A DNA stretch of 45,074 bases. It comes from Kofleriaceae bacterium (GTDB taxonomy: Bacteria; Myxococcota_A; Polyangia; Haliangiales; Haliangiaceae). Under the pieces are notes generated by a model. The model did no database searches and was not told where the DNA came from. It saw nothing but the letters and a program-made list of their open reading frames with translations. This document shows, in pieces, positions 4,980-10,405 of the stretch (the first letter of the stretch is position 1; every line of letters begins with the position of its first letter). The position numbers and the translations under genes are program-made. Location: NCBI GenBank assembly GCA_022842285.1, contig JALHPV010000021.1:1-45074 (forward strand), read 5' to 3'.

Positions 4980-5377
4980 CGCCGCACGAACGTCAACTTC
5001 GCACTGACTTTCCGCGGTCCGCTCGCGTCCGCCGATTACTCGGGATGGAGCCTCTCGCACCGCCGAGCCCCTAGACAGCGTTCACGAGTTTGTCAGGGGG
5101 GCCAAGGAGCGCGCTCGCGAACGTCACGCGCGCCGCCTCGCTGTCCGGTTATCGGACACCACCATCACCGCGGGAAGAATGACAACAAAACCCTTGACGA
5201 GATTCTGAACGCCGTCGGCACCGCGGCGGCGATGTCGCCAACAACTCGTCACAGGACGCGTTCTCGTGCGGTGTGCGCGCGGCGAGGACTCAACTTCGAT
5301 TCGATCGAGGTGAGGGGCGTTTTCTCGTCGGAGATCGCGCGAGGCGAGCGCCGAAATCTGCGTGATAGTGGTGGTGA
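4980..5377. other. Non-coding gap before the HNH gene, with one inverted repeat
   Basis: About 400 bp without a supportable gene. The clearest structure is TGTCCG-GTTAT-CGGACA at 5142-5158, a perfect 6-bp inverted repeat that could be an operator. A TTGACG (-35-like) occurs near 5194 without a good -10. The short open frames here have no coding character. Confidence 0.5.
5142..5158. repeat. Inverted repeat TGTCCG-N5-CGGACA
   Basis: Perfect 6-bp arms around GTTAT, 220 bp upstream of the HNH nuclease gene. It could be a protein-binding site; it does not match the palindrome repeated downstream of the gene. Confidence 0.35.
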
Positions 5378-6589
5378 ATGTTCGAGCAAGTTGCAGGCAA
5401 TGAACATGCGCGGGCGGCGGACGGAATGCAGTGGCTCGACGCGAAGGTGCGGGACTTCGTGCGCCGGCAATCCAGGATGGCCACCGAGGAAGCGGAGCTA
5501 CTGCGCGAAGTCGAGGACACGCGGCTGTGGCACTGGCTCGGCTACCCCTCGATCGTGGCCTACGTCGAGGCGCGGTTCGGCATCGGTCCGCACGCGGCGA
5601 TGGAGCGCCTCCGCACCGCCCGCGATCTGGCCGAGCTACCCGAGATCAACGAAGCGCTCGCGAAGGGCGCCATCACCTATGGCCACGCGCGCGAGCTCAC
5701 CCGCAAGGTCACGCCCGCGACCGAAGCCAACTGGCTCGATCACACGCGGAACATGCGGGTCGGTGACGTCCAGCGCGAGCTCGCGGGCCGCGCGAAGGGC
5801 GACACGCCCGACTCGCCGAAGCGTCCGGAGCTGGAGCGCGTGCGCGTCGTGTTCGAGGTCACCCCTGCCATCAAGGCTCGGCTCCGCGAGATGCGGGCCC
5901 TCGCCGACGAGGAGCGCGGCGAGCGCCAGGACGACTCGGCCTTCCTCGAGATGCTCCTCCGCGACTTCGCCGAGCGCGATCAGCGGACCGATGTCACCAG
6001 CACGCGCCCCGCCTACCAGGTCGCGATGACCATCTGTCGAACCTGCAGGGCCGCCACGCAGACCAGCGGCGGACGTGAAGTCGTGGTCCCCCAGGGGACG
6101 GCCGAGCTGGCCTGCTGCGATGCCGAGCACCTCGGCGACCTGGATGCCGACGAGCCGGCCCGCATCACGAGGTCGGTAACCGAACGGATGCGCAAACAGA
6201 TCCTCGCGCGCGATGGCAATCGCTGCGTGGTGCCCGGCTGCCGTTCGGCTCGCCACCTCGACGCGCACCACATCATCTTTCGCTCGCTCGGCGGTCCTCA
6301 CGCGCTCTGGAACCTCTGCGCCTTGTGCTCGGGCCACCACGCCGCGCTCCACGACGGCAAGCTCTCGATCACAGGCCGCGCACCCGACCTCGTGGTCGTC
6401 AACCATCGCGAGCGCTGCGACCGCGACCTCACCGACGATGGCTCGTGTGCCTGCCCCGTCCTTCATTCACGTCCCCCAGGGGACGCACAGCCTGCCCCAT
6501 CGACCAACCACGCCACAACGGCACGCGCGGACAACGCGTCCGAGATGACAGCGGATGCCGATGCCGCCGGACGCCACGTGCACAACTGA
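5378..6589 (+). CDS. HNH endonuclease with DUF222/13E12-like N-terminal region
   Basis: 403 residues. Residues about 20-140 are helical and resemble the DUF222/13E12-repeat region often fused to HNH nucleases. A Cys pair (220, 223) and a CC (246-247) precede the C-terminal HNH domain (about 270-330): His297/298 in DAHHII, Asn312 in LWNLC, His320/321 in SGHH, with Cys283, Cys288, Cys314 and Cys317 as likely zinc ligands. The tail after about 345 is low-complexity. The DNA for 'VPQGT' (6086-6099) is the core of the palindrome repeated downstream, and another copy (6469-6485) lies in the tail codons, so the gene physically merges with the repeat array. Such nucleases are often mobile or multicopy; the target is unknown. 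The start at ATG 5378 is likely but has only a weak GGTGG ribosome site. Confidence 0.85.
   Translation: MFEQVAGNEHARAADGMQWLDAKVRDFVRRQSRMATEEAELLREVEDTRLWHWLGYPSIVAYVEARFGIGPHAAMERLRTARDLAELPEINEALAKGAITYGHARELTRKVTPATEANWLDHTRNMRVGDVQRELAGRAKGDTPDSPKRPELERVRVVFEVTPAIKARLREMRALADEERGERQDDSAFLEMLLRDFAERDQRTDVTSTRPAYQVAMTICRTCRAATQTSGGREVVVPQGTAELACCDAEHLGDLDADEPARITRSVTERMRKQILARDGNRCVVPGCRSARHLDAHHIIFRSLGGPHALWNLCALCSGHHAALHDGKLSITGRAPDLVVVNHRERCDRDLTDDGSCACPVLHSRPPGDAQPAPSTNHATTARADNASEMTADADAAGRHVHN
6086..6099. repeat. Palindrome core inside the HNH coding sequence
   Basis: GTCCCCCAGGGGAC, identical to the central 14 bp of the 18-bp palindrome repeated after the gene. It is translated here as part of VVVPQGT. 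Confidence 0.7.
6469..6485. repeat. Palindromic repeat copy 1 (in the 3' end of the HNH gene)
   Basis: ACGTCCCCCAGGGGACG, with C instead of T at the last position of the 18-bp consensus. It is read in a different frame from the 6086 copy, giving SRPPGDA, so codon constraint does not explain the similarity. Confidence 0.8.
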
Positions 6590-6634
6590 AGGGGCCGCAG
6601 TCCCCCATGTCGCGGCATACGTACAACAGCCACC

Positions 6635-6652
6635 ACGTCCCCCAGGGGACGT
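6635..6652. repeat. Palindromic repeat copy 2
   Basis: ACGTCCCCCAGGGGACGT, 8-bp perfect arms around a central CA; followed by GTGACCGACA-type flank sequence. Confidence 0.85.
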
Positions 6653-6715
6653 GACCGACATGCAACACGCGCCCAGCACCAGCCGCCCCGACGAGCTGCT
6701 GCCATCCGACCACCC

Positions 6716-6733
6716 ACGTCCCCCAGGGGACGT
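6716..6733. repeat. Palindromic repeat copy 3
   Basis: Identical 18-bp palindrome; it starts the first copy of the larger direct repeat. Confidence 0.85.
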
Positions 6734-6863
6734 GACCCACGCGCACCACACGCGCGGCATCCGCTCCCCGACGAGCCGCCGGGGGCTGCGTCGCAGCGAT
6801 GCACAGCGGGCGACCCTTCTTCTTCTCCCCAGGCACACGGCTCCCCGAGGCGGGGCGGCGGGG
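6716..6863. repeat. Direct repeat unit A (about 148 bp)
   Basis: Matches unit B at 6903-7046. The second half aligns at a constant 183-bp offset (for example GCACAGCG, the CTTCTTCTTCTCCC tract and CTCCCCGAGGCGGGGCGGCG). It contains the 18-bp palindrome and a second short hairpin, CCCCG-AGG-CGGGG (6843-6855). Confidence 0.7.
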
Positions 6864-6902
6864 ACGAGCTGCCGCCTTCCGACCACCAGACCAGCAACAC
6901 CA

Positions 6903-6920
6903 ACGTCCCCCAGGGGACGT
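6903..6920. repeat. Palindromic repeat copy 4
   Basis: Identical 18-bp palindrome, 187 bp after copy 3; followed by GTGATCGACAAGCAACACG. Confidence 0.85.
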
Positions 6921-7046
6921 GATCGACAAGCAACACGCGCGCGGCATCCGCTACCCGACGAGCCGGGACGGCGACGCAGCCATGCACAGCGACCGACCCT
7001 TCTTCTTCTCCCGAGGCGCACGGCTCCCCGAGGCGGGGCGGCGGGG
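6903..7046. repeat. Direct repeat unit B (about 144 bp)
   Basis: Second copy of the larger unit, differing from unit A by scattered substitutions and about 4 bp of indels. The same CCCCG-AGG-CGGGG hairpin is at 7026-7038. Confidence 0.7.
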
Positions 7047-7261
7047 GAGCGACCGCTGCGCGCCGCTGCGCGAGCCCCGTGACGAGCGCTCTATCCTTGA
7101 CGCTTCCACGCTCGGCGCGATGCACATGCGGGCGGCGGCACCGCGAGCCAGCACGTCCCCCGCTGGCGCTCGGCGCGTGGGCTTGCGCAAAGCGGCGTGC
7201 GCGGCGCCCCCGCCGCCCCGACGAGCAGCTGCCATATGCGATCGGACCAGCAACACCATCC

Positions 7262-7278
7262 ACGTCCCCCAGGGACGT
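7262..7278. repeat. Palindromic repeat copy 5 (one G shorter)
   Basis: ACGTCCCCCAGGGACGT, still an inverted repeat with 7-bp arms, followed by the same GTGACCGACAAG flank as other copies. Confidence 0.8.
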
Positions 7279-7436
7279 GACCGACAAGTCCGAGCCGCAC
7301 CCGCCGCCTCGACGAGCACCGGACCAGCACCTGCGGGCCGACGTGGACAGCGCGCTGCGCGACCTGCTCCCCGCTGACGTGGTCGAGGTCACCGGCCGCC
7401 CCGAGCAGCGCGTGCAACAAGTCGTCGCGGCGATGG

Positions 7437-7661
7437 CTACCTGAGCTTCGCGAGCACGGCCCGCGCCGTCGTCGACAGGCCGTCGGGGTCGAGCGCGGCC
7501 TCGATCGGACGCAACGCCCGTGCGAGCTCGAACGCCCTGGTCCGGCCCGCCGCATCCAGGTCGTGCCACGCGGGATGGTAGGTCAGGGGATCGTGCGCAC
7601 GACTCGGTGGCCGATGCGCCGAGGCCACCGCTTCCACGAGCAGATCTTCGTCGTCGCTCAC
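7437..7661 (-). CDS. Small hypothetical protein coupled to the sigma factor
   Basis: 74 residues, starting at GTG 7661, which overlaps the sigma-factor stop (GTGA). An acidic N-terminus (SDDEDLLVEA) is followed by a His-containing segment (SAHRPP...AHDPLTYHPAWHDL) and a helical C-terminus rich in Ala, Arg and Leu. No membrane segment. Its place as the last gene of the VIT/VWA-sigma operon, in translational coupling with the sigma gene, would suit a sigma-binding regulator, but this is inference; it has no recognisable ZAS or RsgI-type motif. The longer reading from 7706 would overlap the sigma gene by about 50 nt and is not preferred. Confidence 0.65.
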   Translation of the reverse strand: MSDDEDLLVEAVASAHRPPSRAHDPLTYHPAWHDLDAAGRTRAFELARALRPIEAALDPDGLSTTARAVLAKLR

Positions 7662-8230
7662 AGCGCGAGCTCCCGTTCGATCTCGACGCCGCGAAGCTCG
7701 AGGCACTTCGCGAGCAGCTGCCGGGCGCGCGTGAAGTTCTGGAGAAACGTGTTGCGCGTCATGCCGAGGCCCTGGGCGAGCTCGTCGTCATCCGCGCCGC
7801 CGGCACTCGACAACCGGGCATCCAGCGCCGCCCGTGGCTTCGCCGGTAACCCATCACGACAGAACACCAGTGCCTGCCGCAACATCGGATCCGCCGGCAC
7901 GCTCCCACTGCGTTCGGATTCGGCGATCGCCGCGTCAAGATCATCGGCCTCGACGGGCGTCGCCTTCGTGCGCCGCACCTCGCTGATGGCGAGGTTGCGC
8001 GCGATTCGCACCGTCAATCGCAGCAAGCCATTTGGCCTGCCATCCGGCTCGAAGCGCGGAGCCACCTGCCACACGCGCAACAGTGCCTCCTGCAGCACGG
8101 CCTCGACGTCCACGACGCCCGCGAACGAGCGGAGCGTGTCACGCACGGGACGCTCGACGGCCGTCATCCACTGCCCGAAGGCCCGGGTGTTGCCGGCGAC
8201 GATCGCGGTGAGATGGACGTCGAGATCCAT
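7658..8230 (-). CDS. ECF-like RNA polymerase sigma factor
   Basis: 190 residues. Region 2-like sequence spans about 15-95, with 'AVLQEALLRVWQ' corresponding to the core-binding/-10 segment of ECF factors; a region 4-like helix-turn-helix lies near the C-terminus ('DDDELAQGLGMTRNTFLQNFTRARQLL'). ATG 8230 is 2 nt after the stop of the VIT/VWA gene (8233), so co-expression is likely; an alternative start at 8248 would overlap. No zinc-type anti-sigma gene is adjacent; the coupled 74-residue protein is the only candidate partner. Region 2 is divergent, so it is called ECF-like rather than placed in a group. Confidence 0.82.
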   Translation of the reverse strand: MDLDVHLTAIVAGNTRAFGQWMTAVERPVRDTLRSFAGVVDVEAVLQEALLRVWQVAPRFEPDGRPNGLLRLTVRIARNLAISEVRRTKATPVEADDLDAAIAESERSGSVPADPMLRQALVFCRDGLPAKPRAALDARLSSAGGADDDELAQGLGMTRNTFLQNFTRARQLLAKCLELRGVEIERELAL

Positions 8231-8232
8231 GG

Positions 8233-10347
8233 TCAGACCAGCCACCACAGAGCGAGGAGGAGCGCGGCGAGAACCAGCACGGCGAGCACCCAGCGCTCGA
8301 TGTTCACACGCTTCGCCGACGCCCTCGGTGCCTGTCCCGGCGGAGCCACCTGCGATTCCTGCCGCACATACTCCTTCACCGGCATCGGTTCGGAGGCCGA
8401 GCTGCGGACCATCATCGTCTTCATCGGCCCCGGCGCCAGCCCCGCCCGGGTCTTGGTCACCGAGCCGAAGCTGGCGAACGTCGGCTCTTCCTCGAGGGTG
8501 TCGAGCATGCCCGGCATCGAGGAGCGGAGCCCGAAGCTCGCCGCGCTCGTCCCGAATGGCAGCTCCTGCGGCACCACCTCGTGGCGCGCCCTGCCGTCAG
8601 TCGCCACGCGCCGCGACTGGTCGACCGCCACCCACGACGTCATGCGCGTCGAGATCTGGAACTCGACGCCCGTGCTCTCGATCGCCCGATCGCTCTCGAT
8701 CGCAGCCGCGTTCCCACCTGCGGACCACTCCATCTCCAGATCGGCGACATGCTCGCGCGCATACAGCGCTGCGATCGCGGCATTCCCCGTCCCGGGCGCA
8801 CGCGCCGGCACGCTGATGCGTTGCTCCCACGTGTCATGAGCCCGCCGCCCGCGCACGACGAGCTCGCCCCCTGCCGGCGACAGCTCGAGGCCCGCCACGA
8901 TCGGCGAGCCCGCAAACACGTCGGGCACGTGGCGCGGCACGTGCCGCACGAGGGCGCTGCCCTCGATCACGACGTCGGTCAGCGCCGGTGCCGTCGTCCG
9001 GTCCAGCAACCGCTTCGCGACGCGCTCGAGGTCCTCGGTCATGCCGACCAGCACCTCCGCTCCGCGACCCGCGCGCGCGAGGGCCTGAGCGAGCGAGCGA
9101 TTCGGAGCCGCGCCGACACCAACCACGTGCAGCCGGCAGCGACCGGGCAGCCCCTTCAGCAACGTGCGCAGGATCTGCGCCTCGCCACCGACATAGCCGT
9201 CGGAGATCAGCACCACCTGACGTTGCGCATCGGGCCGCAGCATCGACATCGCCGCGCTGACCGCGCTCGCCATCTCGGTGCCGCCCCCCGCCGACAGCTT
9301 GTTGACCCACTTCAAGGCCGCACTGCGCGCCTCCGCCGTCGCCGCCACTGGCTCGGGCTGATAGGGCCGCGGCCGGTTCGAGAACTCGATGATCTCGAAG
9401 CGGTCCGCATCGCCCAGCGACGCCATGAGCAGGTGAATCACCTGCTTCGCCATGTCGAGCGGCAAGCCGCCCATCGAGCCGCTCGTATCGAGGAGGATGA
9501 TCAGATCGCGCGCCACGCTCGTCGCCCGCGCCGCGGGAGCGGGCGGCACGATCGTGAGCAGCCCGAATGCATCCCCTGTCGGGCGGCGGTGCGTCGCGAG
9601 CGACAACCCGACGGACGCACTCGCCACCGGCCACCGCAACACGAGGTCGCGATCGAGCGCCGACTGGTCCCGCAGACCGACGACCACCGCGTCGTCCTTC
9701 GTTGTCTGCACGATGCCATGCGACGCCGAGCTCGCCCCCCGGCCGGCGACGAGGGCATCGCCGATCGCGATCTCGATCCCGACGCGCGCCGCGACGCCCC
9801 CGACCGCCACCTCGACGTGGGTCGCCGTCGCGTCCTCGAGGTTGTCCACGTACCGCGGGCCGATCACCGTTGGAAAGCGCAGCTCCCACTCGCCCTCGGG
9901 CAGCCACGTGAGCCGCACGTCGATCGTCGTACGCGCGATCAGCTCCTCGCCCGGCGGGAGGTTGCCGAGCTGCTGCGTGAAGATGTCGGCCCGCTCCTGA
10001 TCGAGGATCGCGGCTGTCTTGCCCTCGGCGACCGCCCGCTCGAACGTCTCGCGAGCCTTCGCCCGCGGCTCGACCACGCCGGTGATCACGCGGCCCGCCA
10101 GCTCGAAGGCATACGCGCTCACGGCCCCGTTCGCCGGAAGGGGCATCCGGTACGTGACATGGAGCGGCTCCGCATGGCGATTCGCGAAGCGCTGCTCGAG
10201 TACGAGGCGCGCGAGACCTCCCCGCGCCTCCCCGCGCAGCGTCGCGCCGAGCAGGGGCAGCGAGCGGCCGTCGCTCGTGACGACCTCCGCGCCGTGGTTC
10301 GAAGAAGCAGTCACGCCAGAGAGAGCCGAGAGTAGCGGGAGGGTCAT
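8233..10347 (-). CDS. VIT and VWA domain protein with C-terminal membrane anchor
   Basis: 704 residues. A VIT (inter-alpha-trypsin) domain spans about 25-170 and a von Willebrand A domain about 280-450 with the metal-binding MIDAS motif DTSGSMGG starting at Asp287. The C-terminus ends in a hydrophobic helix (about 685-703) with a short tail, so it is probably held in the membrane by its C-terminus. ATG 10347 has AAAGGA upstream and is preferred over 10398. Proteins of this layout bind protein ligands through the metal site. It is first in an operon with an ECF-like sigma factor and a 74-residue protein, which suggests membrane sensing linked to transcription; that link is inferred from gene order. 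No obvious N-terminal signal peptide is seen, which is odd for a surface protein. Confidence 0.85.
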   Translation of the reverse strand: MTLPLLSALSGVTASSNHGAEVVTSDGRSLPLLGATLRGEARGGLARLVLEQRFANRHAEPLHVTYRMPLPANGAVSAYAFELAGRVITGVVEPRAKARETFERAVAEGKTAAILDQERADIFTQQLGNLPPGEELIARTTIDVRLTWLPEGEWELRFPTVIGPRYVDNLEDATATHVEVAVGGVAARVGIEIAIGDALVAGRGASSASHGIVQTTKDDAVVVGLRDQSALDRDLVLRWPVASASVGLSLATHRRPTGDAFGLLTIVPPAPAARATSVARDLIILLDTSGSMGGLPLDMAKQVIHLLMASLGDADRFEIIEFSNRPRPYQPEPVAATAEARSAALKWVNKLSAGGGTEMASAVSAAMSMLRPDAQRQVVLISDGYVGGEAQILRTLLKGLPGRCRLHVVGVGAAPNRSLAQALARAGRGAEVLVGMTEDLERVAKRLLDRTTAPALTDVVIEGSALVRHVPRHVPDVFAGSPIVAGLELSPAGGELVVRGRRAHDTWEQRISVPARAPGTGNAAIAALYAREHVADLEMEWSAGGNAAAIESDRAIESTGVEFQISTRMTSWVAVDQSRRVATDGRARHEVVPQELPFGTSAASFGLRSSMPGMLDTLEEEPTFASFGSVTKTRAGLAPGPMKTMMVRSSASEPMPVKEYVRQESQVAPPGQAPRASAKRVNIERWVLAVLVLAALLLALWWLV

Positions 10348-10405
10348 GGTCGATGTCCTTTCAACCGACCAACGCGATGACTGGCGATCTGGTGACAAAG
10401 ATTTT

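Follow-up and report, generated by a model that had tools for sequence, protein, structure and literature searches.

Clade-specific palindromes lie in and around DUF222-HNH nuclease genes and often coincide with the end of homology between gene copies

When a nuclease gene is found among repeated copies of a palindrome, does the palindrome belong to the gene, and what might the protein do there? The question is raised by a 45,074-nt stretch of DNA from a Kofleriaceae bacterium (GCA_022842285.1, contig JALHPV010000021.1, positions 1-45,074; hereafter the window), in which a sequence-only reading had noted an 18-bp GC-rich palindrome recurring beside a DUF222-HNH nuclease gene. Such genes are multicopy in many bacteria, e.g., the 13E12 repeats of Mycobacterium, and we found no paper that gives their function. 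A palindrome private to each clade provides a concrete handle on this problem, as sequence alone then suffices to predict the substrate of each protein, and it makes many natural protein-site pairs available for studying how DNA recognition diverges; the arrangement would also represent a system of gene plus palindrome in which the nuclease bears no relation to RAYT. The features of the locus are as follows.

5143-5157, no strand: upstream dyad GTCCGGTTATCGGAC, possible operator; the paralogue has GTCCGGTGTTCGGAC
5378-6589, + strand: DUF222-HNH nuclease gene, 403 aa (open reading frame; DUF222, PF02720, E 1.1e-8; 77% paralogue at C80:25559-26686)
5540-5629, + strand: predicted helix-turn-helix in the DUF222 part, residues 55-84, weakly ParB-like (profile alignment)
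6086-6099, no strand: in-gene palindrome copy GTCCCCCAGGGGAC in the stretch that links DUF222 to HNH; GTCCCCGCGGGGAC occupies the corresponding place in the paralogue
6200-6382, + strand: HNH nuclease domain with conserved Cys/His; relatives of known structure are IscB, McrA-type enzymes and TagI
6469-6486, no strand: palindrome copy inside the 3' end of the gene, one end base changed; homology to the paralogue stops here
6630-6965, + strand: imperfect 68-nt units at 6630, 6711 and 6898, each opening with the palindrome (repeat analysis)
6635-6652, no strand: exact 18-mer copy, downstream array (sequence match)
6716-6733, no strand: exact 18-mer copy, downstream array (sequence match)
6903-6920, no strand: exact 18-mer copy, downstream array (sequence match)
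7262-7278, no strand: degenerate copy, one G short (sequence match; repeat family D3)

The repeated core is GTCCCCCAGGGGAC, with arms GTCCCC and GGGGAC around a CA centre, and five perfect copies are present in the window, at 6086 and 6471 within the ORF and at 6637, 6718 and 6905. All five sites reported earlier for the 18-mer (6635, 6716, 6903, 6469 and 7262) are found where they had been placed and with the deviations described, and a degenerate half-copy lies near 7152. The density is beyond chance, as had been claimed, with nine matches at ≤3 mismatches versus 0.06 expected from dinucleotide shuffles of the window. Two parts of the earlier description need adjustment: the 18-mer has 8-bp arms and forms a dyad but, with its non-palindromic CA centre, not a perfect palindrome, and an array downstream of the gene accounts for the copies from 6635 onward but omits the core at 6086-6099. 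Moreover, as the ORF runs to 6589, it also takes in the 6469 copy, and the array begins within the gene. Downstream, the sequence is a patchwork of imperfect 68- and 82-nt repeat units.

A search of the bacterium's own genome (7.9 Mb in 550 contigs) returns the core 12 times and a reversed control not at all, and freeing the 2-nt centre (GTCCCCNNGGGGAC) gives 14 copies, all in the same four places, i.e., the window, contig C80, the end of contig C16 and the start of C22. Nine of the 12 cores are at two HNH loci, five in the window and four at C80, which holds the sole close paralogue in the genome (77% identity) and has palindromes upstream, at the equivalent in-gene position, within the gene's 3' end and in an array that follows it. 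Two further cores are at the end of C16, which bears the C80 array unit in the opposite orientation and so probably represents the far side of that array. The filler between palindromes differs between the window and C80, and the palindrome is the part they have in common. The 18-mer is therefore not common genome-wide and is biased to HNH genes, which strongly supports the linkage of gene and palindrome that the sequence-only reading had proposed; the pairing also holds in relatives (below). The start of C22 (L014 1-145) carries a single core after the 3' end of an apparent transposase gene. A third, distant DUF222-HNH homologue (37%; C52:2337-3320, L127) has an internal stop and no matching in-gene palindrome, and is probably a decayed copy.

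The window protein scores 35.2 bits against the DUF222 profile, over the curated cut-off of 24.4, and has a C-terminal HNH domain in which C283, C288, H297, H298, C317, H321 and H325 are invariant in a 13-sequence alignment; by these sequence features it would be assigned to the DUF222-HNH (13E12) family. Its Pfam HNH score is below the cut-off, and an IscB profile match covers the HNH region. The similarity to IscB and McrA-type nucleases lies in the HNH domain and does not extend to the N-terminal domain, and no RuvC or guide-RNA parts are found with the DUF222-HNH protein. Family and profile searches find no RAYT or other transposase domain in the window protein. There are weak matches to defence nucleases, no partner methylase or defence gene is seen adjoining the window gene, and cargo of a phage or plasmid is dismissed, the matches being distant or HNH-only. 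A single-sequence structure prediction of the window protein has a mean pLDDT of 37.8. A RuvA_C domain, the RuvB-binding part of RuvA, terminates 6 of the 13 family members checked and is joined to DUF222-HNH at the C-termini of L085, L073, L205 and others; a domain search finds no such match in the window protein. This fusion is an unusual tie between a nuclease and the Holliday-junction machinery.

We collected sixty loci around same-family homologues. Many DUF222-HNH genes from other species and families of the phylum bear palindromes of 14-20 bp, which are found within the reading frame, at its 3' end and in arrays on its flanks. Their letters are specific to the locus, with arms GTCCC, GGCCC, CGCCC, TGCCC, TACCC, TGTCC, CCCCC and others; the centre is ACGT in most groups, and in the GTCCC group the loop letters vary while the stems are kept. 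At many of the sixty loci a palindrome family of the locus's own lies beside the HNH gene; these include GGCCCACGTGGGCC, GTCCCACGTGGGAC, GTCCCAGCTGGGAC, GTCCCCGCGGGGAC and TACCCACGTGGGTA, as well as TGCCCACGTGGGCA, CGCCCACGTGGGCG, GGGCCACGTGGCCC, TGCACACGTGTGCA and TGTCCACGTGGACA. Exact families of at least three copies occur at 13 of 62 HNH loci versus 0 of 40 control segments, which were hand-picked from contigs of these genomes at a distance from the genes. Across 30 genomes of the family, the count of SNCCCACGTGGGNS rises with the number of HNH genes (Spearman 0.76, p 1e-6; reversed control, 0.005), and in ten genomes where no HNH match passes the cut-off applied, the count is at background, 0-8 copies. 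Sites concentrate inside the gene and within about 1.5 kb of it, and many arrays are at contig ends of draft genomes. One genome, G024, has 23 HNH genes and 294 copies of SNCCCACGTGGGNS, some of them in solo intergenic arrays of TCCCACGTGGGA with up to 15 exact copies at a period of 24-50 bp:

L148 4880-5960; L149 3580-4260; L150 4920-5150 and 9660-9880: solo arrays of G024, no HNH gene within the fetched stretch

Palindromes are also found at greater distance. A genome from another family of the phylum, G178, carries CCCCCACGTGGGGG in five genes, and other families have TGACCCACGTGGGTCA, CGACCCACGTGGGTCG and CGTGGCCCACGTGGGCCACG, plus an array of TGGCTCCGCGGAGCCA. Two far relatives, one from a Gammaproteobacteria MAG, have CGTTTCCGCGGAAACG in the linker, GTTTC-CGCG-GAAAC, with the arms of parS. 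Taken singly, four distant genes reach p 0.02 on synonymous shuffles and about half show nothing, and some homologues, including one actinobacterial homologue from Rhodococcus, lack a palindrome.

Within the ORF, palindromes recur at three positions: near the start, in the DUF222-HNH linker (the 6086 copy) and directly after the HNH domain. The palindrome can encode the recurrent motifs HVG (CAC GTG GGN) or PxG, and we therefore shuffled synonymous codons within each gene. The ORFs contain 79 family-type palindromes, in 45 of 74 genes, versus 8.8 ± 2.9 (maximum, 18) after shuffling; the in-gene palindromes are therefore conserved at the level of DNA and not merely of protein. Among the loci aligned, the exact 6086 site is found elsewhere only in the C80 paralogue; other homologues have copies within that linker zone. 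A recent insertion at 6086 is dismissed, as there is no alignment gap at the site.

The palindrome diversifies with the protein. Arm type requires 14 changes for 13 states on the protein tree, compared with a shuffle mean of 33.6, with rows that are not fully independent; when the rows are reduced to one for each genome and type, a count as low as 14 changes arises in 15 of 2000 shuffles. The TGCCC arm is common to a clade that spans three genomes. Conversely, seven genomes (G001, G002, G006, G014, G022, G026 and G028) contain two protein clades with two palindromes, and in some cases the clade's palindrome matches that of same-clade relatives in other genomes. Because arm type tracks the protein tree and two clades in one genome keep two palindromes, the data point to a palindrome that is partnered with the protein rather than with the host, and this covariation suggests that each protein may have a private landing site for spread or control. 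Within the predicted recognition helix, H72 of the window protein is His in 13 of 13 scored GTCCC-arm proteins versus 4 of 33 others, which have mostly Arg, Lys, Gly, Thr or Asn in the other-arm clades; with a column chosen by eye and at most three independent changes, this association may serve as a lead only.

Homology between copies often ends at the palindrome. DNA homology between the window and C80 runs to the last base of the 3' palindrome (window 6486) and no further, and in G178 and G024 most pairs stop abruptly at the 3' palindrome after 80-92% identity. Over all same-genome pairs, which are not independent, 54 of 140 ends of homology lie 0-30 bp on the 3' side of a palindrome centre versus 9.5 expected, an excess carried by G000, G002, G009, G024 and G178; paralogue boundaries in G001, G011, G013, G014, G028 and G029 do not coincide with palindromes. 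In some cases, relaxed constraint at the tail of the protein could give the appearance of a boundary. On the 5' side, the edge is usually some 60-240 bp ahead of the start codon, in a region that bears a different dyad, GTCCG(N)CGGAC, in G000 and G024. As for features of an insertion sequence, there is no transposase, and one edge is at the palindrome with no matching second edge found.

What, then, might the protein do at these sites? We give about even weight to the explanation that the palindromes are cognate sites of the DUF222-HNH protein, at which the HNH domain cuts and from which repair copies the gene together with its sites. The DUF222 part, through its ParB-like helix-turn-helix, would bind the palindrome as a dimer, with one half-site per subunit and a 4-bp centre, and the HNH domain would cut or nick DNA there. 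The RuvA_C domain of many homologues could bring in RuvB, and repair of the break from other palindrome-bearing loci would copy gene and sites together and expand the arrays. Reading by DUF222 and cutting by HNH at the same palindrome would thus move the two as one, and the outcome would be a selfish unit, homing-like or REP-like in character, with a palindrome as its 3' edge. Binding, cutting and movement by repair are what we infer from the sequences; the best-supported element is that the DUF222 part of each protein reads its own palindrome, and next most likely is that the HNH domain acts at the palindrome and that the unit is copied by repair. In favour of this explanation are the linkage of gene and palindrome, the DNA-level conservation of the palindromes, their diversification with the protein and the RuvA_C domain of 6 of 13 members, together with the weak ParB-like similarity of the DUF222 part with its parS-like site, suggestive of binding, and co-duplication that ends at the palindrome. 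Counting against it, the ParB-like similarity is weak, the window protein has no RuvA_C match, the putative nuclease would have to tolerate sites within its own coding sequence, solo arrays occur with no HNH gene nearby, paralogue boundaries miss the palindromes in six genomes, and some homologues have no palindrome.

The sites of ParB and Noc have a 5-4-5 layout (parS, TGTTTCAC-GTGAAACA; NBS, TATTTCCC-GGGAAATA; PMC7383237). The DUF222-HNH palindromes resemble these in their 5-nt arms, 4-bp centre and CACGTG core, as in parS, and specificity shifts among relatives in both (PMC7383237). The protein similarity is weak. An hhalign comparison of DUF222 with a local ParB helix-turn-helix alignment gives Prob 28.8 and E 6e-4, collinear over 76 columns (HNH negative control, 1.3), HTH_ParB (Pfam) matches one homologue at E 0.06 and Spo0J gives E 0.35. 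A ParB HMM scores at best 10.6 bits on real and 7.3 on shuffled sequences; five real sequences exceed 5 bits, and so does one shuffled set. Unlike ParB and Noc, the DUF222 protein carries an HNH nuclease, its sites are in and around the gene, and no ParA partner or CTP-binding part is seen; a Pfam scan of the window protein gives DUF222 and HNH only, with no N-terminal CTP-binding domain.

REP/BIME elements and RAYT offer a second likeness, in that the gene is flanked by short palindromes whose type is tied to the type of protein, with extra copies or arrays elsewhere in the genome. They differ in that the enzyme here is DUF222-HNH with no match to RAYT (Y1 transposase), and that the dyads are 14-20 bp, not extragenic only (in the ORF in 45 of 74 genes) and, except in G024, mostly local instead of scattered in hundreds. 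The earlier suggestion of an HNH-linked counterpart with different machinery fits these findings, as there is no RAYT or transposase domain and the palindrome diversifies with the protein. Free-standing HNH homing endonucleases likewise have a gene near a presumed site, sporadic copies and multiplication in the genome, but the site here is short, palindromic, much repeated and in the gene, and no intron or intein is seen. The 13E12 or REP13E12 repeats of Mycobacterium belong to the same Pfam family and are multicopy genes that appear as repeats (PMC10589994); we found no palindrome pairing described for them, and the one actinobacterial homologue in our sample, from Rhodococcus, has none. Nor did we find an earlier description of palindromes tied to DUF222-HNH genes in the open-access literature. 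We tentatively propose, with somewhat less than even confidence, a selfish or self-organising unit outside the described kinds, in which an HNH nuclease with a ParB-like reader would co-evolve with a private, edge-setting palindrome in the gene and in arrays, across much of the phylum and possibly in Gammaproteobacteria.

Of the alternatives, the one that survives best, which we nevertheless regard as unlikely, is that the palindromes bind the protein for control or DNA organisation, by self-repression or in a ParB-like complex, with no spread by cutting and with arrays that grow by slippage. The clustering of sites in the gene and within about 1.5 kb, the parS-like layout and the ParB-like similarity are all consistent with this. 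Set against it, the sites are mostly within or downstream of the gene, not at its start, where a different dyad is found; the HNH domain has retained its catalytic residues, gene copies often cease to match at the palindrome, and solo arrays lie at unrelated loci. That different dyad, GTCCG(2-7)CGGAC, occurs near the gene start at 20 of 74 homologous loci; control DNA has 6 sites in 180 kb, so that the dyad is roughly tenfold enriched, and it is possibly the operator of some regulator.

We consider it improbable that the arrays are marks of self, at which the nuclease would be loaded or held and whose absence or difference in other DNA would provoke its attack, as a defence system. Pairing of clade-specific sites with a nuclease, an HNH domain related to McrA-type and TagI restriction enzymes and the weak matches to defence nucleases would suit such a role, but no partner methylase or defence gene is seen adjoining the gene in the window, several diverged systems share a genome, and the sites are few and local, not genome-wide. 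Still less probable is that the palindromes act as RNA or single-strand hairpins, with a 5-bp stem and 4-nt loop, in transcript processing or stability. Stems kept over varying loops in the GTCCC group are what this predicts, but an ACGT centre in most other groups is unexpected for a free loop, and copies are also found upstream of genes and in solo arrays. A terminator or known RNA is dismissed, with no terminator-like site and no Rfam match. The CACGTG core, shared with parS, might instead indicate sites for a host factor, e.g., the host ParB, near which HNH genes merely settle; we hold this to be very improbable, as two HNH clades within a single genome differ in their palindromes, some matching their own-clade relatives in other genomes, and HNH-free genomes have only the background count of 0-8. 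Chance, codon bias (HVG codons CAC GTG GGN) or an assembly artefact, to which the encoded HVG or PxG motifs and the many arrays at draft contig ends might point, is dismissed as barely credible in the face of the window and synonymous shuffles, the 0 of 40 control segments, the control patterns and the many independent genomes.

Farther along the window, an ECF-like sigma factor at 7658-8248 adjoins a gene at 8233-10398 on the - strand, whose protein partially matches marine proteobacterial sortase target proteins (TIGR03788, below cut-off).
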